Assembly: GCA_022361135.1 (NCBI GenBank)
Contig: JAKSBM010000231.1
Span: forward strand, 1-12,332
Length of the DNA: 12,332 nucleotides
Reading direction: 5' to 3'
Origin: Desulfobacterales bacterium
GTDB taxonomy: Bacteria > Desulfobacterota > Desulfobacteria > Desulfobacterales > Desulfobacteraceae
The position numbers were made by a program, and so were the translations under genes. Positions 1,067-12,332 of this stretch are shown here, piece by piece (the first letter of the stretch is position 1; each line of letters opens with the position of its first letter). The notes below the pieces were generated by a model. It did no database searches and was not told where the DNA came from. It saw only the letters and a list, made by a program, of their open reading frames with translations.

Positions 1067-1086
1067 ATACAACCAATGTCCCATGG
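1067..1086 (+). promoter_or_regulatory. conserved upstream element, unit 1 (diverged copy)
   Basis: ATACAACCAATGTCCCATGG is the most diverged of four related 20-mers, each ending 71-73 bases before the TCAG that opens a riboswitch aptamer. Fourteen of 20 positions are identical in all four. It could be an activator site or part of a promoter. It does not match a sigma-70, sigma-54 or FliA promoter well. The function is inferred only from conservation and fixed spacing. Confidence 0.5.
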
Positions 1087-1156
1087 TCACCCCTCCCAAT
1101 TGGCCTTATCATTATCCCAATAAGTTTGAGACATTTTTGTTATAAAAAACGAACCA

Positions 1157-1238
1157 TTCAGAAAAAGCCAAACCTGTTGTGAAGCAGGGACGGAAAATCA
1201 CGGGTCTTTCGATAATAAAGACAGCCGTGTTGCCTGAA
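1157..1238 (+). ncRNA. c-di-GMP-I (GEMM-I) riboswitch aptamer, unit 1, probably decayed
   Basis: P1 is TTCAG (1157-1161) with CTGAA (1234-1238). A GNRA-capped hairpin follows, CCTGTT-GTGA-AGCAGG, flanked by the AAAGCCAAACC and GGGACGGAAA segments. P3 is GTCTTT with AAAGAC. This order is the GEMM-I architecture (Rfam family cyclic-di-GMP-I). Two substitutions turn the AAAGCC core of the other copies into AAAATC, and GGGTT becomes GTGTT. Ligand binding may therefore be impaired. The base corresponding to G20 is G (1167). Confidence 0.8.
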
Positions 1239-1261
1239 AGCAACACGGCTGTCTTTTTTTT
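1220..1261 (+). terminator. riboswitch expression-platform terminator, unit 1
   Basis: GACAGCCGTGTTGC (1220-1233) pairs perfectly over 14 bp with GCAACACGGCTGTC (1240-1253) around a CTGAAA loop, followed by eight T (1254-1261). The 5' strand is also the 3' strand of aptamer helix P3 and the junction, so aptamer and terminator exclude each other. This implies read-through when the ligand is bound. It is the strongest of the four platforms. Confidence 0.88.
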
Positions 1262-1274
1262 GGGAAGAGTAACC

Positions 1275-1487
1275 ATGAAGAACATATTTTTATCCCCCCG
1301 TATCACCCTGGTTTCCGGCGTTGGCCCACGGGCCAATGCAGCATTCATCCCCGACGACATCACCGTGACCCTGCCCCCGGGTGCCAGGGCAGCAATGGCA
1401 CCCATTCCCGAACCCGGAACCATGCTTTTTATGGGCTGTGGCACCATGGGCCTGGCCGACATGGGACGGAAACGGTTCCAAACCTAA
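1275..1487 (+). pseudogene. remnant PEP-CTERM protein gene with an internal deletion (unit 1)
   Basis: An in-frame 70-residue frame keeps both ends of the PEP-CTERM paralogues downstream but lacks about 150 middle codons. It starts MKNIFLS, has the signal-peptide-end-like ANAAF (20-24), then jumps to DDITVTLPPG (27-36). This corresponds to DDIIVALTPG near the C-terminus of unit 2. The tail has PIPEPGTM (43-50, PEP at 45-47), a Cys-containing hydrophobic segment and the basic end GRKRF. The hydrophobic segment carries an Asp (ADMG, 61-64) where intact copies have Gly, and the N-terminal hydrophobic core is too short for a good signal peptide. The likely history is internal deletion followed by drift. 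The purine-rich GGGAAGAG before the ATG is still a passable ribosome site, so a mini-protein could be made. I favour a non-functional remnant. Confidence 0.7.
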
Positions 1488-1569
1488 GATTCCACGCCCC
1501 GGAACAGGGATTGCCTTTCCGGGGATTTATATAATTGCAACACCCTTAAATAACATTACCCTACCTCCA

Positions 1570-1600
1570 GGGCAGGATCTTCGGATCCTGCCCTTTTTTT
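1570..1600 (+). terminator. intrinsic terminator with UUCG loop, unit 1
   Basis: GGGCAGGATC (1570-1579), loop TTCG and GATCCTGCCC (1584-1593) form a perfect 10-bp stem, followed by seven T. The C(UUCG)G loop is a known extra-stable tetraloop. The 16-mer CCCTACCTCCAGGGCA at 1559-1574 also occurs at 981-996, just before the Dabb terminator. Confidence 0.93.
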
Positions 1601-2059
1601 CGGGCGTATCCCGGGAGTTTAGTCCCAAGGGTACCATTGACCGCCCCAGCCCCCATATGACGGTCTCCAAAATATCTTCCCACCCCCTGGGCAAAGTTTA
1701 CGATTCATCCGAGCAATCCCATGTATGGGGTTTGGCCCCATTCAATGGGGGCATTATTTTAAACTTGCCAATCATACCCGGTAAATCAGGTGATGGCGGA
1801 TTGGGAGAAAAACCTTCAAATCAAATGGGAAAAACCCCATTCATCGAAACGTTATTTTGAGAGCCGCTATATAAAGAGGATGGGGAGAATGCATACCCAG
1901 GGGGGCAAATCCCAAAGCGCAGATTCCCATAAGATGTCCAGCCACACCAGCAAAGCAGGGGGCTTCAGTCAAAGAAGCGGCCCACCATGCCTCCAGATTC
2001 ACCCGGACCAGCCCCAAGGATTCGGTGGAAAAGAATAAAATCGACACAAGGGCTTGTAA
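1601..2059. other. 460-base stretch between units 1 and 2 without a supported gene
   Basis: No frame with a ribosome site and recognisable protein is visible on either strand. One hairpin-like inverted repeat, GCCCC-ATTCAAT-GGGGGC (1735-1753) followed by ATTATTTT, could be a weak terminator. The stretch may be debris of a deleted gene or unit, since the other inter-unit gaps are much shorter. I see no sequence proof of that. Confidence 0.45.
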
Positions 2060-2079
2060 ATACGACAAATGTCCGATGG
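2060..2079 (+). promoter_or_regulatory. conserved upstream element, unit 2
   Basis: ATACGACAAATGTCCGATGG, 73 bases before the aptamer's opening TCAG. It matches unit 4 at 19 of 20 positions. It runs into a perfect 12-base palindrome, GATGGCGCCATC (2075-2086), that the other units lack. Confidence 0.6.
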
Positions 2080-2124
2080 CGCCATCTATCTCAAGCATTA
2101 CATTATTCTAACAATTCAGAAAAA

Positions 2125-2148
2125 GATTTCTCAATTTATTGAAAAATC
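2125..2148 (+). other. leader hairpin upstream of aptamer, unit 2
   Basis: GATTT-C-TCAAT pairs with ATTGA-A-AAATC (10 bp with one mismatch). Units 3 and 4 also have a hairpin at this place, with unrelated sequence. Confidence 0.4.
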
Positions 2149-2152
2149 AAAA

Positions 2153-2227
2153 TCAGAAAAAGCCAAACCCATCGCGAGGTGGGGACGGAAAGCCAAGGGC
2201 CTTAATTTAAGACAGCCGGTTGCCTGA
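2153..2227 (+). ncRNA. c-di-GMP-I (GEMM-I) riboswitch aptamer, unit 2
   Basis: P1 is TCAG (2153-2156) with CTGA (2224-2227). P2 is CCCATC-GCGA-GGTGGG, capped by a GNRA tetraloop. The conserved joining segments are AAAAAGCCAAA before P2 and GGACGGAAAGCC after it. P3 (CTT with AAG) runs into GACAGCCGGTTGCC. The base corresponding to ligand-sensing G20 is G (2162). Stem sequences differ from the other units with pairing kept, which supports a folded RNA. It lies 43 bases before the start codon of the PEP-CTERM gene it should control. Confidence 0.88.
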
Positions 2228-2257
2228 ATATATGAAGCAACACGGCTTGTTTAATTT
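2214..2257 (+). terminator. riboswitch expression-platform terminator, unit 2
   Basis: AGCCGGTTGC (2214-2223) pairs with GCAACACGGCT (2237-2247) with one bulged A, followed by the interrupted T-tract TGTTTAATTT. The 5' strand belongs to the aptamer, so the two structures compete. It looks weaker than in unit 1, so basal read-through is likely. Confidence 0.65.
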
Positions 2258-2269
2258 AAGGAGAATACC

Positions 2270-2950
2270 ATGAAATCCAAACTTTTAATTCTTTTATGCA
2301 CCATTGCCTTGGCCATCGGCATTTTCAGCATAAACCCGGTTTCGGCAGCCCCCGTGCCGTACGACATCGGCCATATCACCGATTTTTTAGATGACGACAC
2401 CTATTTCAACGATTACGAACACCTGGACAATATCGATTTTTCAGGGACCTGGAATTACACGGTCATCGGATATGAATCCAGCCATCGCAACTGGATTCAC
2501 GATGGAACCGGTATCACTTATATGGGATACACCTTTCCCTTAACCACATTTTCCACTTCCTCCACCAGCACCTTCGGCACCTTTGACACGGTGAACTTTG
2601 ACACCGACAACCTCTACTTCCAGGACACCAACGGTCCCTATGGCGTGGCCCTGGACTATTATGTTCACAACAATTTCTTCGAAGTTTTCCGCCTCACCGA
2701 AGCCTCGGAAAACCTCGACTACCTGGCCACCCCCATCACCCTGCCCGAGGGGGCCATCATTGTCGGCTTCAATGACAATGGTTTCTCCCCCCGCATCGGT
2801 GATGCCGACTTTGACGACATCATTGTGGCCTTAACCCCCGGGGAGGACGCGGCCATCAGCCCCATCCCCGAACCCGGAACCATGCTCCTTCTGGGCTGCG
2901 GCCTCATGGGCCTGGCCGGCATGGGCCGGAGACGCTTTACCCAGGAATAA
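2270..2950 (+). CDS. PEP-CTERM sorting-domain exported protein, unit 2
   Basis: A 226-residue exported protein. Residues 1-27 are a Sec signal peptide with a hydrophobic core and cleavage after SAA. A globular region follows, shared with units 3 and 4: DDDTYFNDYEHLDNIDFSG (41-59), then LYFQD, YVHNNFFEVFRL (131-142) and VGFNDNGFSPRIGDADFDD (165-183). The acidic end of the last block resembles calcium-binding loops such as those of DUF4114-type proteins; this is a resemblance only. The C-terminus is a canonical exosortase signal: PEP at 200-202, a hydrophobic helix with a Cys (210), then GRRRF. Known PEP-CTERM proteins are recognised by an exosortase and sent to the surface or matrix; no exosortase gene is in this window. 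AAGGAG lies 6 bases before the ATG. Transcription is presumably gated by the riboswitch upstream. Confidence 0.93.
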   Translation: MKSKLLILLCTIALAIGIFSINPVSAAPVPYDIGHITDFLDDDTYFNDYEHLDNIDFSGTWNYTVIGYESSHRNWIHDGTGITYMGYTFPLTTFSTSSTSTFGTFDTVNFDTDNLYFQDTNGPYGVALDYYVHNNFFEVFRLTEASENLDYLATPITLPEGAIIVGFNDNGFSPRIGDADFDDIIVALTPGEDAAISPIPEPGTMLLLGCGLMGLAGMGRRRFTQE

Positions 2951-2957
2951 ACACCCC

Positions 2958-3013
2958 GGGCGGGTTTAACCCCGCCCCCCATATCATCACCGGATCCGGC
3001 CTTTGCCGGATCC
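2958..3013 (+). repeat. two tandem perfect hairpins after unit 2
   Basis: GGGCGGG (2958-2964) pairs with CCCGCCC (2971-2977). GGATCCGGC (2992-3000) pairs with GCCGGATCC (3005-3013). Neither has a T-tract, and a true terminator follows at 3020. They could protect the mRNA 3' end or act as backup stops. Confidence 0.6.
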
Positions 3014-3019
3014 TCCCAA

Positions 3020-3043
3020 GCAGGGCTTCGGCCCTGCTTTTTT
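3020..3043 (+). terminator. intrinsic terminator, unit 2
   Basis: GCAGGGC-TTCG-GCCCTGC followed by six T. The stem resembles those ending units 1, 3 and 4, so the terminator is part of the repeated cassette. Confidence 0.93.
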
Positions 3044-3190
3044 CGTTTTATCCCCCCTAGCTTAAAAATCGCCTGAAAATTCCATGCCAATGTTTAATCC
3101 TGGATCCATCCGTGGGGTTTCAAGGTGAAATCCTCCCGATTTTATTCAGGTTTTATCCCGGATTACTCACAAGTTTCTAACAGAATGGGT

Positions 3191-3210
3191 ATACGACAAA
3201 CGGCGGATGG
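3191..3210 (+). promoter_or_regulatory. conserved upstream element, unit 3
   Basis: ATACGACAAACGGCGGATGG, 72 bases before the aptamer. Similarity to unit 4 extends further upstream (CACAA, then TAACAGA, then GGTATACGAC) and a few bases downstream. Confidence 0.6.
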
Positions 3211-3258
3211 CAAATGATTTCCCCCTCCCTTAACTTAGTTCCATAATTCAGCAAAAAT

Positions 3259-3276
3259 TTTCCGACCCATCGGAAA
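3259..3276 (+). other. leader hairpin upstream of aptamer, unit 3
   Basis: TTTCCGA-CCCA-TCGGAAA is a perfect 7-bp stem just before the aptamer. Its position corresponds to the hairpins of units 2 and 4. Confidence 0.5.
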
Positions 3277-3282
3277 CCAATA

Positions 3283-3358
3283 TCAGAAAAAGCCAAATCC
3301 ACTGTGAAGTGGAGACGGAAAGCCAAGGATCTTAAATGAAGACAGCCGGGTTGCCTGA
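3283..3358 (+). ncRNA. c-di-GMP-I (GEMM-I) riboswitch aptamer, unit 3
   Basis: P1 is TCAG (3283-3286) with CTGA (3355-3358). P2 is TCCACT-GTGA-AGTGGA, with its closing base pair changed on both sides (T-A instead of C-G in the other copies), a direct covariation. P3 is TCTT with AAGA. The segments AAAAAGCCAAA and GACGGAAAGCC are intact, and the G20 equivalent is G (3292). It ends 44 bases before the unit 3 start codon. Confidence 0.88.
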
Positions 3359-3388
3359 GAGTTAAAAGCAACACGGCTTGTTTAATTT
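3344..3388 (+). terminator. riboswitch expression-platform terminator, unit 3
   Basis: AGCCGGGTTGC (3344-3354) pairs with GCAACACGGCT (3368-3378) with one G-A mismatch, followed by TGTTTAATTT. It overlaps the aptamer's 3' strand, so ligand binding should block it. Confidence 0.65.
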
Positions 3389-3402
3389 AAGGAGAGGCAA
3401 AA

Positions 3403-4053
3403 ATGAAACACAACATATTAACCATCATATGCATCACCGCCCTGGCCATGGGCATCTTCAGCACAACCCCGGTATGGGCAGCCCGGCTGCCCTACAGCAT
3501 CACCAGCATTAACGATTTTTTAAACGACGACACCTATTTCAATGATTACGAGCATCTGGACAACATTGATTTTTCAGGGAGCTGGGACTACACGGTCATC
3601 GGATACGAATCCAGGCATTGGAACTGGATCCGGGAGGGGGGAAACACCACCTTCGCCACGTGGAACCGAGGGGCTTTCGGCACCTTTAATACCGTGGATT
3701 TTGATACCAGCGATCTCTACTTCCAAGATTACGACGGCCCCTTCAACATAGGCCTGAACCCCTATGTCCACAATAATTTCTTTGAAATATTTCGGCTTAC
3801 CGAAGCTTCGGAAAGCCTTTCATACCTGGCCACTCCCGTGACCCTCCCCGTGGGGACCGTCATCGTGGGTTTCAACGACAACGGCTTTGACCCCCGGGTG
3901 GGGGACGCCGATTTCGACGATATCATCGTGGCCTTAACCCCGGGTGAAGACGGAACCCTCACCCCCATTCCCGAACCCGGCACCCTGCTTCTTCTGGGCT
4001 GCGGCCTCATGGGATTGGCCGGGGTCGGCAGAAAGCGGTTCCAAACCCCATGA
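3403..4053 (+). CDS. PEP-CTERM sorting-domain exported protein, unit 3
   Basis: A 216-residue paralogue of unit 2, and the closest to it of the set. The signal peptide covers about residues 1-27 (ending VWAA). The shared blocks are present: DDTYFNDYEHLDNIDFSG (42-59), LYFQD (105-109), YVHNNFFEIFRL (121-132) and VGFNDNGFDPRVGDADFDD (155-173). The segment between NWIREG and FGTF (about 80-91) is shorter and unrelated in sequence to unit 2, marking a variable loop. The tail has PEP at 190-192, a hydrophobic helix with Cys200, and GRKRF. AAGGAG lies 9 bases before the ATG. The role is inferred from the sorting signal: export and exosortase-dependent surface or matrix placement. No enzymatic motif is visible. 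Confidence 0.93.
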   Translation: MKHNILTIICITALAMGIFSTTPVWAARLPYSITSINDFLNDDTYFNDYEHLDNIDFSGSWDYTVIGYESRHWNWIREGGNTTFATWNRGAFGTFNTVDFDTSDLYFQDYDGPFNIGLNPYVHNNFFEIFRLTEASESLSYLATPVTLPVGTVIVGFNDNGFDPRVGDADFDDIIVALTPGEDGTLTPIPEPGTLLLLGCGLMGLAGVGRKRFQTP

Positions 4054-4233
4054 CAAAAACCACCAGGGTGGGCCAGCCCCACCCCATTTATATAACCCGA
4101 TAAACCTGAACCCAACCATTAACCCTAACCCATTGGCAAATTACCATTCCATCAACCTTTAAAAATGCAACAATGAAGCCTTAACTTTACACCCATTTAA
4201 CCCGTAATTCGAAATACACACTATGATTAACCC

Positions 4234-4262
4234 AAAGGCAGGGCCCAAGCCCTGCCTTTTTT
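4234..4262 (+). terminator. intrinsic terminator, unit 3
   Basis: AAAGGCAGGGC (4234-4244), loop CCAA and GCCCTGCCTTT (4249-4259) form an 11-bp stem running into six T. It lies about 180 bases after the stop codon, farther than in the other units. Confidence 0.93.
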
Positions 4263-4427
4263 CGTGGAAAATGCCACGGCTCCTCCCATTGCCGGGACAA
4301 TTTTAAGGGCGGTCCCCCCGATTCACCCCCGGCCCACCCCAAAATGCCTTCCGATTTCACAAAAGACAGCCCCACCCTAACCCAAAGGAATTATGCCAAT
4401 TCATCACAAAACTATAACAGAGCCGGT

Positions 4428-4447
4428 ATACGACAAATGGCCGATGG
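4428..4447 (+). promoter_or_regulatory. conserved upstream element, unit 4
   Basis: ATACGACAAATGGCCGATGG, 73 bases before the aptamer. This copy is closest to the consensus of the four. Confidence 0.6.
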
Positions 4448-4483
4448 TAAACCGGCCCAATCAACCCTAACTTATTACCATGA

Positions 4484-4513
4484 TTTCAAGACATCCCATC
4501 CTGGGACTTGAAA
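4484..4513 (+). other. leader hairpin upstream of aptamer, unit 4
   Basis: TTTCAAG (4484-4490) pairs with CTTGAAA (4507-4513), with an inner CCCA/TGGG stem. An alternative hairpin, ACTTGA-AACA-TCAAGT (4506-4521), overlaps it, so two exclusive folds are possible. Confidence 0.5.
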
Positions 4514-4520
4514 CATCAAG

Positions 4521-4597
4521 TCAGAAAAAGCCAAACCCATTGTGAAGTGGGGACGGAAAGCCTAAGGAACTTAAGATAAGTCAGCCGGGTTACCTGA
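4521..4597 (+). ncRNA. c-di-GMP-I (GEMM-I) riboswitch aptamer, unit 4
   Basis: P1 is TCAG (4521-4524) with CTGA (4594-4597). P2 is CCCATT-GTGA-AGTGGG. P3 is ACTT with AAGT, where units 1 and 3 have TCTT with AAGA, a compensatory double change. The core segments AAAAAGCCAAACC and GGACGGAAAGCC are intact, and the G20 equivalent is G (4530). It ends 40 bases before the start codon. Confidence 0.88.
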
Positions 4598-4624
4598 AAC
4601 GAGGTAACTCGGTTTGTTTATTTT
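4583..4624 (+). terminator. riboswitch expression-platform terminator, unit 4
   Basis: AGCCGGGTTACCT (4583-4595) pairs with AGGTAACTCGGTT (4602-4614) over 13 positions including two G-T wobbles, followed by TTTGTTTATTTT. The stem sequence differs from units 1-3 on both strands (TTACC/GGTAA instead of TTGC/GCAA), so pairing has been conserved. Confidence 0.75.
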
Positions 4625-4637
4625 AAGGAGATAACCA

Positions 4638-5336
4638 ATGAAAAAATATATATTAAACAGCATCTTCGTCCTTGCCATGGCCCTGGCAATTTTCGCCGCT
4701 CCGGCGGCACAGGCAAACAGCCTACCCTATGTCATTGATCACATTGATGATTTTTTAGGGGATACCACCTATTTCAACGGGTATGAACACCTGGACGACA
4801 TCAGCTTTTCAGGCCGCTGGCATTACACGGCCATCGCCTTTGAAGCCGGCCACACCAATTGGATCCACGAAGGGACAGGGACTCCCAACACCTTCACCAC
4901 GGCGGACACCTCCAATTTCGGGGCATACAATTACATCAACTTTGATTCGTCCAACCTCTATTTCCAGGATGACGGCGGCCCCTATAATGTGGTCTTCAAC
5001 CCCTATGTCCACAACAATTTCTTTGAGGTTTTCCGCCTCACGGCCGCATCCAATGCATTGAATTTTCTCCCCGGCGCACCGGTGGAAGATGCAGAACTGA
5101 ATCCCTACGGTACCGGCTCCCTAAGCCTGCCTTCGGGAACCATTATCGTGGGATTTAACGACAACGGCTTTGGTCCCCGCATCGGCGATGCCGACTTTGA
5201 CGACATCATCATCGCCTTAACCCCCTTGGGCGGGGGAGCCATTGCCACTGTCCCCGAACCCGGCACCATGGTTCTCCTGGGCTGCGGCCTCATGGGTCTG
5301 GCCGGAGTCGGCCGGAGACGCTTCCAACGGTCATAA
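4638..5336 (+). CDS. PEP-CTERM sorting-domain exported protein, unit 4
   Basis: A 232-residue paralogue and the most diverged intact copy. The signal peptide covers residues 1-26 (ending AAQA). The blocks TYFNGYEHLDDISFSG (44-59), NLYFQDDGGPYNV (106-118), YVHNNFFEVFRL (123-134) and VGFNDNGFGPRIGDADFDD (171-189) are kept. Around residues 146-162 it carries an extra segment (PVEDAELNPYGTG) absent from units 2 and 3. The tail is VPEPGT (PEP at 206-208), a hydrophobic helix with Cys216, and GRRRF. AAGGAG lies 6 bases before the ATG. As with its paralogues, the sorting signal implies export and exosortase processing. The globular part has no family that I can name, and no catalytic motif is visible. 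Confidence 0.93.
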   Translation: MKKYILNSIFVLAMALAIFAAPAAQANSLPYVIDHIDDFLGDTTYFNGYEHLDDISFSGRWHYTAIAFEAGHTNWIHEGTGTPNTFTTADTSNFGAYNYINFDSSNLYFQDDGGPYNVVFNPYVHNNFFEVFRLTAASNALNFLPGAPVEDAELNPYGTGSLSLPSGTIIVGFNDNGFGPRIGDADFDDIIIALTPLGGGAIATVPEPGTMVLLGCGLMGLAGVGRRRFQRS

Positions 5337-5341
5337 CCCCC

Positions 5342-5364
5342 ACCGGGCGGTACCGCCCGGTTTT
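5342..5364 (+). terminator. first terminator-like hairpin after unit 4
   Basis: ACCGGGCGGTACCGCCCGGT (5342-5361) is a perfect 20-base palindrome followed by TTT, starting 5 bases after the stop codon. Confidence 0.7.
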
Positions 5365-5373
5365 ACATAACCC

Positions 5374-5433
5374 GGCCGGCGAACCTTGCCGGCCCCAAAT
5401 GCCGCTGGATTCCGGCCTCTCCACCGGAATCCA
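5374..5433 (+). repeat. two further tandem hairpins after unit 4
   Basis: GGCCGGC (5374-5380) pairs with GCCGGCC (5388-5394). TGGATTCCGG (5406-5415) pairs with CCGGAATCCA (5424-5433). Both are perfect and neither has a T-tract. The arrangement parallels the hairpin cluster after unit 2. Confidence 0.6.
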
Positions 5434-5439
5434 TCATAG

Positions 5440-5467
5440 GGGCAGGGCTGCCGGGCCCTGCCCTTTT
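5440..5467 (+). terminator. final intrinsic terminator of the PEP-CTERM array
   Basis: GGGCAGGGC (5440-5448) pairs with GCCCTGCCC (5455-5463) across TGCCGG, followed by TTTT. It carries the same GGCAGGGC stem type as units 2 and 3. Confidence 0.85.
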
Positions 5468-5589: not shown

Positions 5590-6627
5590 ATGCGCACCTA
5601 TCCGGACACCCTTGTAAAAATCATCGAAACCAGCGGATTGAATATCAATCAGATTTCCAAAATGTCCGGCATATCCAACACCTACCTCACCAAATTGGTG
5701 AAGCAGAAGATCAACCACCCGGGCAAGGATAAAATCGCCTCCATCCTCCTGGGACTCAACCACACCATTTCACGAATCAACCAAGTCCTGGCCGACTACG
5801 ATTACCAGCCCCTGAACCGCCACGACATTCCACAGATTCTAAAAAACAACCGGAAACGCCGCTTTGAAGGCCGGGTCCTCCCCCATTACGATTCCATTTA
5901 TTTTGAATTGGTCCTGGCGGCCCTGGAGGATTTGGGGGGGACCAAGATCATTGTATGGAGCCGTCCTTCGGCCATTTTCCTTCCCATGGACCTTTACATG
6001 GACCGGGAATTCCCCGGGGAATTACAGCCCGGCATCTATGGAGATACTGACTTTTACCGGATCTTTACCCGTGAAATCGTGGCCCAGCGCAAGGCCCTCT
6101 TCCTGGAAAACAGCCGCAGGGGCATGACCTATGAAACCTATATGTGCCGGGAATGCCTGGCCATGGGCATGGAAAACAACATCGGCGCCAAAGCCCAGGC
6201 AGACAACCCCGCCCGGGTGGACCAGGTGGCCCGATTCTATGCCAATGTGGTCTCCTTTGTCCTCAAGGCCCCGGACCAACACCGATACGGCATCATGGAG
6301 CGCTGCCCCTATTTTCAATTCCAGATCCAGGACGCCCATGGAAAAAATCCCAAGGTCAGCTTTACCAGCACCCGGAAACACGCCCGGGAAACCAAGTGGG
6401 AGGCCCCCCACATCCAGGGATTTTTCTCCAATGCCCCGGGAATCACCGACCTTTTCACCACCGAGGTGGACCATTGCCGGGAGTCCGCCCACCTGAGCCC
6501 GGAGCTCAATAGCCCCCAGGGATTCCACAATCACATCCGCAAGGGCTTTGCCTGCCATGGGGTAGAAGAAACCTTTGACCGGGCCCTGGCCGAACTCATG
6601 GCCGATCCCGAACTCCGCCTCCACTGA
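5590..6627 (+). CDS. XRE-like helix-turn-helix protein with an unrecognised C-terminal domain
   Basis: A 345-residue cytoplasmic protein. Residues 6-60 look like an XRE/Cro-type DNA-binding domain: LVKIIETSGLNINQISKMSG, then ISNTYLTKLVKQ as recognition helix, then a helix with IASILLGLN. Residues 85-345 form a large domain I cannot assign. It has many aromatic residues, a CRECLAMG pair of cysteines (186, 189), further Cys at 239, 296 and 322, and a His-rich end (HNHIRKGFACHG). It could be a ligand or metal/redox sensor, but there is no direct evidence. AAAGGAAG lies just before the ATG at 5590. It is isolated from the PEP-CTERM array by terminators and precedes the transporter operon on the same strand, so it is a candidate regulator of that operon. 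A role in the array is equally unproven. Confidence 0.75.
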   Translation: MRTYPDTLVKIIETSGLNINQISKMSGISNTYLTKLVKQKINHPGKDKIASILLGLNHTISRINQVLADYDYQPLNRHDIPQILKNNRKRRFEGRVLPHYDSIYFELVLAALEDLGGTKIIVWSRPSAIFLPMDLYMDREFPGELQPGIYGDTDFYRIFTREIVAQRKALFLENSRRGMTYETYMCRECLAMGMENNIGAKAQADNPARVDQVARFYANVVSFVLKAPDQHRYGIMERCPYFQFQIQDAHGKNPKVSFTSTRKHARETKWEAPHIQGFFSNAPGITDLFTTEVDHCRESAHLSPELNSPQGFHNHIRKGFACHGVEETFDRALAELMADPELRLH

Positions 6628-6898: not shown

Positions 6899-7894
6899 AT
6901 GCGCACAAAAGAACAGATCCTCTCCATTGAAGATCTTAAAACTTATTTTTATTCCCGCAGGGGCGTGGCCAAGGCCGTTGACGGCGTCTCCTTCGGCCTC
7001 AACGCAGGGGAAGTGTTGGGCGTGGTCGGGGAATCCGGCTGCGGCAAAAGCGTCACCGCCCAGTCGGTGATGCAATTGGTCCCCCAGCCCCCGGGCCGCA
7101 TCGTGGGCGGACACATCCGCTTCAAGGGGCAGGACCTGCTCCCCCTATCGGCCCGGGAAATGCGAAAAATCCGGGGCGCGGGAATCGCCATGATCTTCCA
7201 GGAACCCATGACCTCCCTGAATCCGGTCTACACCATCGGCGACCAGATCGCCGAGATGTTCCGGCTCCACAAGGGCATGGGGAAAAAACAGGCCCTGGAA
7301 GCGGCCGTGGACATGCTGGCCCGGGTCCAGATCCCCTCCCCCCATAAGCGGGTCCATGAATACCCCCACCAGCTCTCCGGGGGCATGCGCCAACGGGCCA
7401 TGATTGCCATGGCCCTGAGCTGCGACCCGGAGGTGCTCATTGCCGACGAGCCCACCACGGCCCTGGACGTCACGGTACAGGCACAGATCCTGGACCTCAT
7501 GCTCCGGCTCAAGGAGGAATACAACACCGCGGTCCAGCTCATCACCCATGATCTGGGCGTCATCGCCGAAACCGCAGACCAGGTGGTGGTCATGTATGCG
7601 GGCCAGATGGTGGAACAGGCCCCCACCGGAGAACTCTTCCGGAACACCCTCCATCCCTACACCCAGGGTCTGCTCAACTCCATCCCGGTGTTGGGCAGCC
7701 GTAAGGGAAGCGGGGATGCGGCCCCATTGTCGGAAATCAAAGGAATGATCCCCTCCCTCTTTGACCTGCCCAAGGGCTGCCGGTTCTTCAACCGCTGCCC
7801 CCATTGCATGGACATCTGCAAGACCCAGCCCCCGGCCCTGGAGGACAAGGGCAGCGCCCACGCCGTCCGGTGCTGGCTCCACAATAGGAAATAA
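6899..7894 (+). CDS. dppD: peptide/nickel-family ABC transporter ATPase, DppD/OppD-like
   Basis: One of two nucleotide-binding subunits that power import through the inner membrane. With the ATG at 6899 it has 331 residues: Walker A GESGCGKS (44-51), Q-loop Gln101, signature LSGGM (159-163), Walker B VLIADE (179-184) and switch His217. The C-terminal oligopeptide-transporter extension has four closely spaced cysteines (294, 300, 303, 307). In some DppD homologues such cysteines bind an iron-sulfur cluster. A TTG at 6872 would add nine residues, but it has no ribosome site; GAGAA lies 7 bases before 6899. It is the first gene of the operon, 2 bases before its partner ATPase. The family covers dipeptides, oligopeptides, nickel, opines and some sugars, so the symbol names the family and not a proven substrate. 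Confidence 0.88.
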
Positions 7895-7896
7895 AT

Positions 7897-8883
7897 ATGG
7901 ATAAACCGATCATCACCGCCGATCCCCTGCTGGAAGCCCGTGACCTTAAGGTCCACTTCCCCGTGAAAAAGGGGCTGCTGGCCCGCACCGTGGGCAAGGT
8001 CCATGCCGTGGACGGCATCAGCTTTGACCTGAAGGCCGGAGAAACCCTGGGGATTGTGGGGGAATCCGGCTGCGGCAAAACCACGGCCGGCATGGCCCTC
8101 ATGCGCCTGACACCCCCCACCGCGGGACAGGTCTTCTGGCAGGGCGAGGACATGGCCCTGTGCAGCCCGGGCCGCATGCGGGCCCTGCGCCGGGAAATGC
8201 AGCTCATTTTCCAGGATCCCTACTCTTCTTTGAATCCCCGCATGACCATTGGCCAGATCCTCTCGGACCCCCTGGACATCCACCGGATGTACACGGGCAA
8301 AAAACGGCGGGAACGGTTGGAATTCCTCATGGAAACCGTGGGGCTGTCCCCCTCGGTGGCCGACCGCTACCCCCATGAATTCTCCGGGGGACAGCGCCAG
8401 CGCATCGGCATTGCCCGGGCCCTGGCCCTGGATCCCACCCTCATCATCGGGGATGAGCCGGTCTCGGCCCTGGACGTGTCCATCCAGGCCCAGATCATCA
8501 ACCTGCTGGTCAAACTGAAACGGGAATTCATCCTCTCTTTGATCATCATTTCCCACGACCTGGCCGTGGTGGAGCACATCTGTGACCGCATCATCGTCAT
8601 GTACCTGGGCAAGATTATTGAATCGGCAGACTACGCCTCCCTCTATGCAGATCCCAAGCACCCCTACACCCGGACCCTGCTCTCGGCCGTACCCGTGCCC
8701 AACCCGGACCGGGCCAAAAAACGGATTATTTTAAAGGGAGACCTGCCCAGCCCCATCAACCCGCCCTCGGGATGCCGGTTCCACACCCGCTGTCCCGATT
8801 GCATGGATATTTGTAAACATCAGGAACCCCGGATGACGCAGTTCAGCCCCACCCATGGTGCCGCCTGCCACCTCTACAATTAG
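7897..8883 (+). CDS. dppF: peptide/nickel-family ABC transporter ATPase, DppF/OppF-like
   Basis: The second ATPase, 328 residues, expected to form a heterodimer with the preceding gene product on the cytoplasmic face of the permease pair. Motifs seen: Walker A GESGCGKT (55-62), Gln106 (FQDPYSSLNP), signature FSGGQ (162-166), Walker B LIIGDE (182-187) and switch His220. The C-terminal extension has the same four-cysteine pattern (293, 299, 302, 306). The QDPYSSLNPR and FSGGQRQR sequences are the F-type variants, against QEPMTSLNP and LSGGMRQR in the D-type neighbour, so the two ATPases can be told apart. The start lies 2 bases after the upstream stop, with AGGAAA overlapping the end of that gene, indicating translational coupling. 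Confidence 0.9.
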   Translation: MDKPIITADPLLEARDLKVHFPVKKGLLARTVGKVHAVDGISFDLKAGETLGIVGESGCGKTTAGMALMRLTPPTAGQVFWQGEDMALCSPGRMRALRREMQLIFQDPYSSLNPRMTIGQILSDPLDIHRMYTGKKRRERLEFLMETVGLSPSVADRYPHEFSGGQRQRIGIARALALDPTLIIGDEPVSALDVSIQAQIINLLVKLKREFILSLIIISHDLAVVEHICDRIIVMYLGKIIESADYASLYADPKHPYTRTLLSAVPVPNPDRAKKRIILKGDLPSPINPPSGCRFHTRCPDCMDICKHQEPRMTQFSPTHGAACHLYN

Positions 8884-8920
8884 AGGCATCCAGATCCCAT
8901 TACCCCCAAAAGGAGGACCC

Positions 8921-10438
8921 ATGAGAAACAAACTTGTAAGACTGGCCGTTACACTGGCCTTTCTGGCCCTGCCGTCCATGGCCCTGGCCAAGGCCGACCT
9001 GGTCATTGCCGTTGATGCACCCCCCAAGAGTATGAATCCCCATTCCTACAACTCCGACGCCAACTTCTCCTACATGTCCAACTTTTTTGACGGACTGCTC
9101 CAGAGACCGGCCCCGGAGGGCAAACTCTACCCGGCCCTGGCCACATCCTGGGAAAGACAGGATGCCCTGACCTGGAAGTTCACCCTGCGCCGGGGTGTGA
9201 AATTCCACAACGGCAACGACTTCAATGCCGATGACGTGAAGTTCACCTTTGAACGCATGAAAGATCCCAAATTCTCCAAATTCCTGAACCTGGCCAACTC
9301 CATTGCCGCCATTGAAACCCCGGATGCCCATACCGTCATCTTCAAAACCCACAAACCCGTGCCCTGGTTCGCCGAAACCATGCACCAGAACTTCATCGTG
9401 GATAAGGAATCCACGGAAAACCGGGATTCCGGGGATTACAACACCCGCCCCGTGGGCACCGGTGCCTATAAATTCGTGGAATGGGTCAAGGGTTCCTATA
9501 TTAAAATGGAGGCCAATGAAGACTATTGGGAAGGGGCACCCAAGTATAAAAGTGTTGAAATCAAGCCCATCACCCAGGCATCCACCCGGTTTGCCGCCAT
9601 TGCCGCCCGCCAGGCCGACATCCTCACCGGTGTCCCCGTGACCCTCATTGACCGGATCAAAAAGAATCCCGCCATTGAGATTGTCTCCCGCCCGGCCCGC
9701 CGCTGCATCTACATGGATCTGGGCAAAAAGGAAGGCACCCCCTTTGCCGACATCCGGGTCAGAAAAGCCATTGCCATGGCCATCAATGAAGATGAAATCA
9801 TCAAAACCGTCATGCACGGCCAGGCCACCCCGGCGGCCCAGGTCCCGGACGAAGCCACCATCGGCTACGATCCTTCCCTGAAACGCCTGCCCTACGATCC
9901 TGCAGCAGCCAAGGCCCTGCTCAAGGAAGCCGGATACGAAAATGGATTTGAAATCACCATCGCCGGCCCCAACGATCGTTACATCAACGACAAGGCCATC
10001 TGCGAAGCCGTGGCCAAATACCTGGCCAAGATCGGCCTCAAGGTCAGCCTGGACGTAAAACCCAAGTCCATCTTCTTTGAAGAGCTCACCTCACACAAGC
10101 ACAACTTCTACCTCATCGGATGGATGGACGGATCCTACGACTTTGGCCGCTCCGCCAACATGCTCCTCCACACCCCGGATGCGGACAAGGGCATGGGCAC
10201 CTACAACGGCGCCATGTACTCCGACGCTGAAATCGACGCCGGTATTGCCGCCTCTTCGGCCATCCTGGACCGGGGAGAACGGGAAGCCGCCCTCCAGGCC
10301 ATCAATAAAAAAAGTGTGGAAGACATTGCCTGGATCCCCCTGCACTACCAGCAGGATGTCTATGCCGTGTCCAAGGCCGCCAAGGTGAATTTCACCCCCC
10401 GGCCCGACCGGTGGATGGTGGTCAAGGAAATGAAGTAA
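8921..10438 (+). CDS. dppA: periplasmic solute-binding protein, family 5 (DppA/OppA-like)
   Basis: A 505-residue binding protein that should capture the substrate in the periplasm and deliver it to the permease. Residues 1-23 are a signal peptide ending PSMALA, with no lipobox cysteine, so the mature protein is soluble. The family-5 signature is clear: LTWKFTLRRGVKFHNGNDFNADDVKFTFER spans roughly residues 83-112. Later come the RPVGTGAYKF and NEDYWEGAPKY segments and GWMDGSYDFG in the ligand-pocket region. AGGAGG (8911-8916) sits 4 bases before this ATG, and the signal peptide begins here, so the in-frame ATG at 8855 inside the previous gene is rejected. The substrate cannot be read from sequence. 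Placing the binding-protein gene third, between ATPases and permeases, is less common than the dppABCDF order. Confidence 0.92.
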   Translation: MRNKLVRLAVTLAFLALPSMALAKADLVIAVDAPPKSMNPHSYNSDANFSYMSNFFDGLLQRPAPEGKLYPALATSWERQDALTWKFTLRRGVKFHNGNDFNADDVKFTFERMKDPKFSKFLNLANSIAAIETPDAHTVIFKTHKPVPWFAETMHQNFIVDKESTENRDSGDYNTRPVGTGAYKFVEWVKGSYIKMEANEDYWEGAPKYKSVEIKPITQASTRFAAIAARQADILTGVPVTLIDRIKKNPAIEIVSRPARRCIYMDLGKKEGTPFADIRVRKAIAMAINEDEIIKTVMHGQATPAAQVPDEATIGYDPSLKRLPYDPAAAKALLKEAGYENGFEITIAGPNDRYINDKAICEAVAKYLAKIGLKVSLDVKPKSIFFEELTSHKHNFYLIGWMDGSYDFGRSANMLLHTPDADKGMGTYNGAMYSDAEIDAGIAASSAILDRGEREAALQAINKKSVEDIAWIPLHYQQDVYAVSKAAKVNFTPRPDRWMVVKEMK

Positions 10439-10455
10439 CCCGATTTTCCAGACCA

Positions 10456-10490
10456 TTTGCACCGGCAGTCGACTCTCCTGCCGGTGCAAA
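10456..10490 (+). other. intercistronic 13-bp hairpin between binding protein and permease genes
   Basis: TTTGCACCGGCAG (10456-10468) is a perfect inverted repeat of CTGCCGGTGCAAA (10478-10490) with a 9-base loop. It starts 17 bases after the stop codon. There is no T-tract, so it is more likely an mRNA-stabilising or attenuating hairpin than a full terminator. Such structures are known after binding-protein genes, which need higher expression than the permeases. Confidence 0.75.
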
Positions 10491-10577
10491 TTCATCCGTG
10501 AAATATTCGGTTTTTATAACCCCAAACTCCGGGTCCGGCCCCATGGCCCACTCCGGAACGAAAACGGAAACAACACC

Positions 10578-11543
10578 GTGGCAAGATATATTCTCCAAAG
10601 ATTAATCCAGGGCATCATGGTCCTGCTGGCCGTCTCCTTTATCTGCTTTATTCTCTTCCGGTTCACCGGAGACCCGGTCCTGATGCTGGCGGGCAAATAC
10701 GCCACCCAGCAGGAACGGGAGCAGGTCCGCATCGCCTACGGCCTGGACAAACCCTTTTACGTCCAATACGCCAACTTCCTGGGCAATGCCCTGAAGGGGG
10801 ATTTCGGCAAATCCTATATTTCCCAGGTGGACGCCCTGGACACCATCCTGGAGCGTTTCCCCGCCACCTTTGAGCTGGCCCTCACCGCCATTGCCATCTC
10901 CCTGTTCTTCGGGGTCTTTTTCGGGGTGGTGGTCTCGCTGAAACCCGATGGGTTTCTGTCACGGATCATCATGGCCGGAAGTCTGGGGGGCATTTCCGTG
11001 CCCACCTTCCTCATGGGCATCCTCTGGGTCATGCTCTTTGCCGTTTACCTGGAATGGCTCCCCCCCTTCGGCCGGGGAGATACACTGACCATCGGCTCCT
11101 GGCGTACCGGACTGCTCACCCTGGACGGGCTGAAACACATCATCATGCCCGCCCTGACCCTGGCCGGGTACCAATTGGCCGTAATCCTGCGCCTCACCCG
11201 GGCCGGCATGCGGGAAGCCCTGTCCGAGGAATACATTAAAACGGCCTGGTCCAAGGGGCTTTCCCCCTTCAAGGTCATTGTGAAGCATGCCCTGCGCAAC
11301 GTCCTCATCCCCGTGGTCACCATTGCGGGCCTCAGCTTTGGGGAACTCATTGCCTTTTCCATTGTCACGGAATCCATCTTCCAATGGCCGGGCATGGGTA
11401 ACCTCTTGCTGGTCTCCATCTTTGAAACGGACCAGCCGGTCATCGTCACCTATATTATGCTGGCGGCCTTTATCATTCTTTTCATCAATATTCTGGTGGA
11501 CCTGCTCTACGCATGGCTGAACCCGAGAATTCAATACGACTAG
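10578..11543 (+). CDS. dppB: ABC transporter permease, DppB/OppB-like
   Basis: A 321-residue inner-membrane protein. The N-terminal MARYILQRLIQGIMVLLAVSF with a first membrane helix at about 9-28 is typical of the DppB type. So are the TGDP motif (30-33), the long periplasmic loop with YGLDKP (54-59), and the LKGDFGKS stretch (72-79). The cytoplasmic EAA loop that contacts the ATPases is EALSEEYIKTAWSKGLSPFK (213-232). Helices then recur to residue 313. The start is GTG at 10578, with only a weak GGAAA upstream. It is the only one of the operon's last four genes without a good ribosome site, and it follows the intercistronic hairpin. Both features suggest expression below that of the binding protein. 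Confidence 0.9.
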   Translation: MARYILQRLIQGIMVLLAVSFICFILFRFTGDPVLMLAGKYATQQEREQVRIAYGLDKPFYVQYANFLGNALKGDFGKSYISQVDALDTILERFPATFELALTAIAISLFFGVFFGVVVSLKPDGFLSRIIMAGSLGGISVPTFLMGILWVMLFAVYLEWLPPFGRGDTLTIGSWRTGLLTLDGLKHIIMPALTLAGYQLAVILRLTRAGMREALSEEYIKTAWSKGLSPFKVIVKHALRNVLIPVVTIAGLSFGELIAFSIVTESIFQWPGMGNLLLVSIFETDQPVIVTYIMLAAFIILFINILVDLLYAWLNPRIQYD

Positions 11544-11551
11544 GAGGAAAG

Positions 11552-12332
11552 ATGTCACGATTTATTGATTCCAACCGGGTCCACAATTTTCTCCACGACC
11601 CCTCGGCCCTTTTGGGGGCGGCCCTGATCCTGATTTTTGCCTTCATTGCCATCTTTGCACCGCTTTTAGCGCCCATGGATCCCTATGACTTAACAAATAT
11701 CGACCTGGGCAATGCCCTGCTCTCCCCGGCCTGGATGGACGGGGGCAGCTTCCATTTCCCCCTGGGCACCGACGACCAGGGCCGGGGCATCCTTTCCACC
11801 ATCCTCTACGGACTGCGCACCTCCTTGCTGGTGGGGTTTACCACGGTACTCATCTCCGGCACCCTGGGTATCCTTCTGGGGCTCTTTGGCGGATACTACG
11901 GGGGATTTCTGGACAGCATGATCATGCGGGCCGCGGACACGGTATTCTCCTTTTCCACCACCCTGCTGGCCATCCTCCTTTTGGGGGTCTTTGAAAGCCG
12001 TAACATCTGGACCGTCATCTTTGCCATCTGCATTGCCGGCTGGGTGAAATATGCCCGGACCATCCGGGGCTCGGTGCTGGAGGTAAAGGAAAACGCCTAT
12101 GTCACAGCAGCGGCCGCATGCGGGGCCAAGGACAGCCGGATCCTGTTCAAGCACATTCTGCCCAATGCCCTGCCCCCCATCTTTGTTCTCATGGCCGTGG
12201 ACATGGCCGTGGTCATCATGCTGGAGGCCACCTTGAGCTTTCTGGGGGTGGGGGTTCCCATCACCGAACCCTCCCTGGGCATGATGATCTCCATTGGGAA
12301 AAATTATATCTACGCGGACATGTGGTGGATGG
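11552..12332 (+). CDS. dppC: ABC transporter permease, DppC/OppC-like (3' end outside window)
   Basis: The frame is open from the ATG at 11552 to the window end, giving 260 residues so far; family members are usually about 280-310. It has the short cytoplasmic N-terminus, a first membrane helix near 18-40, and then the diagnostic LGTDDQGRGILSTILYGLRTSL (71-92). The EAA loop is ENAYVTAAAACGAKDSRILFKHILPN (180-205, Gly191 included), followed by LEATLSFLGVGV (224-235). It pairs with the preceding permease to form the channel. AGGAGG overlaps the upstream TAG stop (11541-11547) and lies 4 bases before the ATG, implying translational coupling. Confidence 0.92.
   Translation, partial: MSRFIDSNRVHNFLHDPSALLGAALILIFAFIAIFAPLLAPMDPYDLTNIDLGNALLSPAWMDGGSFHFPLGTDDQGRGILSTILYGLRTSLLVGFTTVLISGTLGILLGLFGGYYGGFLDSMIMRAADTVFSFSTTLLAILLLGVFESRNIWTVIFAICIAGWVKYARTIRGSVLEVKENAYVTAAAACGAKDSRILFKHILPNALPPIFVLMAVDMAVVIMLEATLSFLGVGVPITEPSLGMMISIGKNYIYADMWWM

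Follow-up and report, generated by a model that had tools for sequence, protein, structure and literature searches.

Positions 1067..5467 of contig JAKSBM010000231.1 from a Desulfobacterales bacterium (GenBank assembly GCA_022361135.1), which we analysed over its full 12,332 nucleotides (the window), hold four consecutive units. Each comprises, in this order, a 20-mer element, a GEMM-I riboswitch aptamer of predicted cyclic di-GMP (c-di-GMP) type, a PEP-CTERM reading frame and a GC-rich terminator (Table 1). The array is real, well formed and statistically secure. It had been proposed from the letters of the DNA alone, in what we call the original prediction, as a control RNA duplicated together with each gene, and this stands: there is one aptamer per open reading frame (ORF) in all four units. 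A covariance-model search of the window was significant at all four aptamers (E from 2.4e-14 to 8.5e-11); the predicted starts at 2153, 3283 and 4521 were exact, and the first aptamer begins at 1158 rather than 1157. The terminator expected at the end of each unit was also recovered in every case. With terminators lying between the units, the array does not fall under the definition of tandem riboswitches (at least two switches before one ORF).

Table 1. Features of the four-unit array, in window coordinates.
Feature	Unit	Coordinates	Strand	Basis
20-mer element (ATACAACCAATGTCCCATGG)	1	1067..1086	+	pattern search; putative promoter or operator
20-mer element	2	2060..2079	+	pattern search
20-mer element	3	3191..3210	+	pattern search
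20-mer element	4	4428..4447	+	pattern search
GEMM-I aptamer	1	1158..1238	+	cmscan RF03167, 66.9 bits, E 2.4e-14
GEMM-I aptamer	2	2153..2228	+	RF03167, 63.9 bits, E 1.7e-13
GEMM-I aptamer	3	3283..3359	+	RF03167, 61.3 bits, E 9.8e-13
GEMM-I aptamer	4	4521..4598	+	RF03167, 54.5 bits, E 8.5e-11
Competing hairpin, 17-bp intrinsic terminator with U tract, overlapping aptamer P3/P1	1	1217..1256	+	scan, folding
Competing hairpin, P3 5' strand to Shine-Dalgarno AAGG (AAGGAG 2258-2263)	2	2200..2261	+	folding
Competing hairpin, extending to Shine-Dalgarno (AAGGAG 3389-3394)	3	3330..3392	+	folding
Competing hairpin, extending to Shine-Dalgarno (AAGGAG 4625-4630; AAG paired)	4	4570..4627	+	scan, folding
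Remnant PEP-CTERM frame, 70 aa, without mature domain	1	1275..1487	+	PF07589 21.4 bits (cut-off 20.7)
PEP-CTERM protein, 226 aa	2	2270..2950	+	PF07589 26.0 bits, TIGR02595 18.2 bits
PEP-CTERM protein, 216 aa	3	3403..4053	+	PF07589 25.9 bits, TIGR02595 21.3 bits
PEP-CTERM protein, 232 aa	4	4638..5336	+	PF07589 25.6 bits, TIGR02595 19.9 bits
Terminator after unit	1	1569..1594	+	terminator scan
Terminator after unit	2	3018..3039	+	terminator scan
Terminator after unit (AAAGGCAGGGC CCAA GCCCTGCCTTT, then TTT)	3	4234..4259	+	by eye; not in scan list
Terminator after unit	4	5438..5465	+	terminator scan

The 20-mer (ATACRACMAAYGKCSSATGG) occurs exactly four times in the whole window and nowhere else there, against a chance expectation of 0.03 (window shuffles, up to 3 mismatches); its pattern was derived from these same four copies, and their zero mismatches therefore hold by construction. 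It precedes the aptamers by 71, 73, 72 and 73 nt in units 1-4, within the gap of 71-73 bases originally described. Identity between units is 51-58% in the spacer between 20-mer and aptamer versus 77-87% in the aptamers, and since the spacer has diverged to this degree, it is the 20-mer itself that appears to have been kept. The element may be a promoter or activator site. It resembles no recognisable promoter type; sigma-70 promoter matches near the units differ from copy to copy, and no sigma-54 pattern common to the units was seen by eye. A second repeat, TTCAGAAAAAG, corresponds to the aptamer 5' end and recurs at 2115-2125, ~37 nt 5' of aptamer 2, where it is perhaps a duplication scar.

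At the protein level, the C-terminal PEP motif, transmembrane helix and basic tail score above the cut-off of PF07589 in all four frames and of TIGR02595 in three, unit 1 being the exception. Frames 2-4 have a hydrophobic N-terminus, a mature domain of ~150 residues and the C-terminal PEP motif. Frame 1 aligns convincingly to them solely across the last ~45-50 residues. Its maximum 12-residue hydropathy is 1.23, a poor signal-like start, versus 2.68-3.16 in frames 2-4; the hydrophobic start is thus present in three of the four frames, as judged from hydropathy and not from a dedicated signal peptide predictor. We read frame 1 as a probable internal-deletion remnant, so that the PEP-CTERM gene expected in each unit is present in reduced form here, and the four paralogous exosortase substrates of the original prediction become three plus one 70-aa remnant. 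An AlphaFold2 model of frame 3 (mean predicted local distance difference test score 79.4) has a beta domain between an N-terminal and a C-terminal helix, and found no match at E<=1e-3 in the PDB. The matches do not suffice to call the mature domain a lectin: LecB/BclA-type rows mostly came top, at E>=6e-3 and TMq 0.26-0.30, and NAD kinase was the second-ranking row. Units 2 and 3 form a sister pair in the protein tree (support 95/92), and unit 4 lies outside a group that holds homologues from other sources, at a weakly resolved fork (80/34); given this topology, the array was probably built up by one duplication after another and not at once.

The state of unit 1 suggests that the array may be decaying, with product coming from units 2-4 or fewer and unit 1 persisting as a roleless pseudogene. 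We put the chance of this slightly short of even, and it is compatible with the explanation that we favour below. The missing mature domain and the poor signal peptide argue for it, whereas the unit 1 leader looks maintained, because the frame is open, the aptamer scores best of the four and the terminator is perfect.

Relatives of these proteins are few. A large protein search returned 16 members of the family, 3 of them the window's own, and the nearest named homologue is a protein from a Desulfobacterales metagenome-assembled genome (P0003, 61%). A scan of genome contigs for the family gave one locus, in a Methylophaga genome (G001), and viral contigs yielded no relative. Methylophaga is a gammaproteobacterium, and we use "Methylophaga family" (Methylophagaceae) as a label for 57 genomes around G001 as centre. 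RF01051 matches are present in 35 of the 57, and the window protein profile hits 14 at E<=0.001, three of them strongly (G001, G017 and G032). The gene of the window's protein family in G017 begins 26 nt after a GEMM-I aptamer.

The link from GEMM-I to PEP-CTERM recurs in the Methylophaga family. Eighteen stretches were picked, mostly for clustered aptamers; 16 of them held aptamers, 37 in total, and a PEP/VPLPA-CTERM-like frame follows all 37 (34 by regular expression, 3 by eye), although the stretches include near-copies (L037/L038, L030/L032) and the 37 cases are not independent. Series on one strand comprise two to five units; the longest is L025, where a terminator-like repeat follows three of the five. 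A less selected set comprised 38 further aptamers, hand-picked among the higher-ranking of the best matches listed, some of them with a neighbouring aptamer at most a few kb away. Of these, 31 precede a CTERM gene (17, then L182 once lengthened as L232, then 13 of 18 added). Among the seven misses, five frames are unfinished, namely L174 (lengthened as L231, where the contig ends before the frame does) and L218, L219, L221 and L222, which belong to a long protein family whose one complete sequence, L232, has a CTERM end; the other two (L166 and L227) have no fitting frame. The regular expression matches 70 of the 157 ORFs of at least 100 aa in the fetched stretches, a count that includes the aptamer-led ORFs and so provides no clean negative control. 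A class-wide sample gave RF01051 matches in 67 of 369 genomes. Of the 30 loci there, 20 were examined. At 2 of them the contig ended before any ORF, and at 7 the ORF continued beyond the stretch; none of the 11 complete first ORFs has a CTERM, and several of the first ORFs examined may not be real genes. At E<=1e-10 the window protein profile found one of the 369 genomes, which is the centre G001 itself.

Several arrangements in the Methylophaga family stand apart from the simple unit. At L232 (G053:C24), a GEMM-I aptamer lies 5' of a very long exported protein of 1113 aa with a CTERM end, and an aptamer with a very long exported protein also occurs at L218, L219, L221 and L222. The aptamers of L166 (G017:C7:213941-214027) and L227 (G015:C8:1961-2048) have no fitting same-strand ORF and are followed by similar sequence, with a strong terminator-like hairpin at once after the aptamer in L166; these may be orphan aptamers, or the terminator may be shared with a convergent gene. 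At L029 (G017:C12:43000-49000), an RNase P RNA gene has aptamers with CTERM genes on both sides, in either orientation.

The original prediction had left it unsettled whether such an array was already described. Arrangements of this kind were already known: PMC12530212 tabulates one for Methylophaga (this and the other PMC sources are cited from excerpts), and several of the family's genomes contain such arrays. PMC12530212 lists seven c-di-GMP riboswitches in Methylophaga nitratireducenticrescens GP59; according to its Table 4, the three at 1405201, 1406231 and 1407172 lie within 2 kb of one another and are each next to a PEP-CTERM gene, and a fourth flanks a VPLPA-CTERM gene 15-17 kb away. 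Four riboswitch coordinates in our genome G039 agree with this table within ~160 bases, and G039 is therefore probably M. nitratireducenticrescens. The GP59 cluster resembles the window in its grouped units of c-di-GMP riboswitch and PEP-CTERM gene. It differs in the protein family, and in the L026 stretch it has aptamer-to-ATG gaps of 28 nt, VPVPA-type C-termini and no terminator like that of the window. The L025 array (G042:C7:317693-321221) is likewise a head-to-tail series, in which an aptamer with an exported CTERM protein recurs every 0.8-0.95 kb; its five units differ in that all are full-length genes (167-174 aa) of another protein family with another expression platform. Tandem c-di-GMP-I riboswitches (347 doublets and 12 triplets in PMC9481103) also bring several switches near one another, but in series before a single ORF and pseudo-cooperatively, whereas the window has one per ORF. 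The same source describes a 7-kb region of Desulfobacca acetoxidans with seven riboswitches, in which several c-di-GMP-I riboswitches share a locus in three clusters split by ORFs; adenosylcobalamin and cyclic AMP-GMP (cAMP-GMP) riboswitches are mixed in there as logic gates, and PEP-CTERM genes are unmentioned in the excerpts. In the literature searched, which left subscription papers outside its coverage, we found no study that treats a riboswitch/PEP-CTERM array as a system, and "c-di-GMP riboswitch" combined with exosortase gave nothing.

How the aptamers might control their genes is indicated by the leader folds. In all four leaders the minimum-energy structure is a long hairpin of P3, P1 and downstream sequence and not the aptamer, at -50.3, -34.8, -36.9 and -40.3 kcal/mol for units 1-4; with the aptamer enforced, and with no ligand term, the energies are -23.0, -16.7, -18.9 and -22.9 kcal/mol. 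The core in unit 1 is a perfect 17-bp stem with a U run behind it (z -10.2), and its longer fold (1198-1278) additionally pairs most of the Shine-Dalgarno sequence GGGAAGAG at 1262-1269. The cores of units 2-4 are weaker but real (z -3.9, -3.1 and -5.2). A terminator overlapping the aptamer had been predicted for every unit; strictly, it exists in unit 1 only, as the U tract of units 2-4 is interrupted (UUGUUUAAUUU or UUUGUUUAUUUU) and continues into the Shine-Dalgarno sequence. Nor was termination upheld as a platform common to all units, with the hairpins of units 1 and 4 listed as terminator-like by the scan and those of units 2 and 3 not, and with Shine-Dalgarno pairing in all leaders. The pairing probability of the Shine-Dalgarno core is 0.99, 0.96, 0.93 and 0.76 in units 1-4, and shuffled P3 apices match the observed pairing in 0, 4, 1 and 5 of 300 trials. 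The unit 1 apex gives 0.99 with its own Shine-Dalgarno sequence and 0.32-0.49 with the AAGGAG of units 2-4, and the apices of units 2-4 fit poorly when placed in unit 1 (0.27-0.57), a compensatory pattern which suggests that apex and Shine-Dalgarno sequence form matched sets. Because the hairpin pairs the Shine-Dalgarno sequence in all four leaders, translational or dual ON control would be at least as likely as termination.

The competing view, that these leaders act by transcription termination alone and pair their Shine-Dalgarno sequences incidentally, we regard as unlikely, if the strongest of the mechanistic alternatives. It draws on the textbook terminator of unit 1 (17 bp, U run) and on the scan listing of the unit 4 hairpin. 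It also draws on a second control, in which natural apices from other genomes' aptamers match the observed pairing in 1, 3, 10 and 4 of 31 cases for units 1-4, so that the pairing in unit 3, equalled by 10 of the 31, is not special. The absence of the unit 2 and 3 hairpins from the scan list and the rarity with which shuffled apices reproduce the pairing speak against it. We infer an ON switch that would work through termination in unit 1 and, in units 2-4, through translation or through both mechanisms.

The ligand is predicted from the aptamers themselves. For all four, the top Rfam model is RF03167 (c-di-GMP-I-GGC), which is in the same clan as RF01051; the RF01051 score itself was masked by clan competition. 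RF01051, the model named in the original prediction, belongs to the right clan but is not the best-scoring model. The RF03167 gathering score of 59 bits is passed by three aptamers, with aptamer 4 (54.5) below it. As members of the GEMM-I class (RF01051; RF03167), the aptamers show the covariance match, the three-way junction, the pocket bases and a P2 loop of the GNRA type, a tetraloop that is a feature of the class (GUGA, GCGA, GUGA and GUGA in the four folds). On the Vc2 numbering, G20, A47 and C92 are present in all four (C92 read by eye from alignments). The window aptamers have a C21-G46 pair where Vc2 has G21-C46, and depart from the class also in the dual hairpin proposed here. At the position-47 column, all four have A (CGGAAAG or CGGAAAA, versus the RF03167 consensus CGCGAAg), and the G in place of A47 that we presume to be the RF03167 trait is found in none of them; "GGC" may stand for G20-G47-C92, judging from the model consensus. 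A new ligand class for RF03167 was considered and ruled out here by the canonical pocket bases.

G20, A47 and C92 are ligand contacts in Vc2 (PMC4744006), and at one contact position G goes with c-di-GMP and A with cAMP-GMP (PMC9481103, Fig. 3 legend). The A at position 20 that marks cAMP-GMP (GEMM-Ib) aptamers is replaced by G in all four. Since the four share G20, A47 and C92, we classify them as c-di-GMP-type with c-di-GMP as the predicted ligand, in keeping with the original prediction. It is improbable that they respond chiefly to 3',3'-cyclic GMP-AMP (cGAMP), like many Geobacter GEMM-I RNAs. The Desulfobacterota relationship, the binding of cGAMP by 12 of 17 G. sulfurreducens GEMM-I aptamers (PMC8835794), the variant RF03167 as best model and the description of the G20-equivalent position as a selectivity factor and not a hard filter (PMC9262584) would all favour cGAMP, but the c-di-GMP-type G20, together with A47 and C92, is invariant across the array.

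Taken together, the explanation that we favour, with a probability of roughly 0.7, is a tandem family of genes for exported PEP-CTERM proteins, each with its own upstream region, GEMM-I riboswitch and terminator and under ON control. In the ligand-free leader, downstream sequence would pair with the P1 strand and with the 3' strand of P3 to form the long hairpin. This hairpin would terminate transcription, clearly in unit 1 and weakly in units 2-4, and its lower part would mask the Shine-Dalgarno sequence. Once c-di-GMP is bound, the aptamer would retain the P3 and P1 strands, the hairpin would be blocked and the gene expressed. High c-di-GMP, as in the sessile state, could then increase the expression of several related exosortase substrates together. 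Unit 1 would be a decayed unit that has retained its switch and lost its protein domain. The opposite sign, with ligand-bound P1 blocking expression and the downstream hairpin merely a default terminator, is about as improbable as a response to cGAMP or slightly more so: homologous cyclic-dinucleotide aptamers do work with both signs (PMC9262584), but the terminator/Shine-Dalgarno hairpin uses the 3' strands of P3 and P1, and ligand binding should therefore prevent it.

Several observations weigh against the favoured explanation, among them the interrupted U tracts and the foreign apices described above. The aptamer-enforced fold leaves the Shine-Dalgarno sequence partly free, and least so in units 2 and 4, where the unpaired probability is 0.10 and 0.09 for the GG of unit 2 and 0.30, 0.12 and 0.09 for the GAG of unit 4. 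No terminator like that of the window is visible by eye in Methylophaga-family leaders, and the expression platform is therefore probably not shared with that family. The homologues in G001 and G032 have no aptamer in the surrounding stretches (L040 and L036, also L001). Finally, the window frames searched against Pfam and NCBIfam include no match to an exosortase.

Other features of the window lie outside this argument. A hairpin stands directly 5' of the aptamer in some units (3259-3276 and 4480-4516, with differing sequences), the 45 nt preceding aptamers 3 and 4 having folding z of -2.8 and -3.4, and a hairpin just 5' of the aptamer is also seen in several Methylophaga-family leaders. A general covarying hairpin at this place was rejected as too weak: across 41 aptamers, the 45-nt upstream stretches have a mean z of -1.0 and reach p<=0.05 in 10 cases, versus mean z of -0.41 and -0.36 and 4 and 8 cases of 41 in two control stretches. 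Directly 3' of the array, 5590-6627 (+) encodes a 345-aa protein with a weak helix-turn-helix-like N-terminus and no Pfam or NCBIfam family above cut-off; its product possibly regulates the array or the downstream Opp operon, an ordinary Opp/Dpp/Nik-type peptide ATP-binding cassette transporter operon at 6899-12331. On the 5' side, 650-949 is a gene with a Dabb domain, and 2-205 holds the end of a gene with a tRNA-editing domain.

The regulator that PMC7726332 names for exosortase substrates is the two-component system PrsK/PrsR; the array, with its predicted ligand, would link such substrates directly to c-di-GMP through RNA. Most sampled GEMM-I RNAs of the Methylophaga family precede CTERM genes, and a riboswitch-run exosortase regulon is testable there. 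Individual units might respond differently, as hinted in PMC12530212, where Ribo5 transcript levels behaved unlike those of Ribo4, 6 and 7. A wider and rather improbable conjecture is that the unit of GEMM-I and exosortase substrate has been multiplied head to tail in two or more lineages far apart, one the Methylophaga family and another probably Desulfobacterales, with c-di-GMP setting the dose of a matrix-protein repertoire. In the present array, termination and Shine-Dalgarno sequestration would then be coupled in one hairpin, and unit 1 would be a leader that mainly yields a short terminated c-di-GMP-binding RNA. The main worth of the array is that the same unit probably also exists outside the Methylophaga family, and that it offers a dual-hairpin platform that can be tested.

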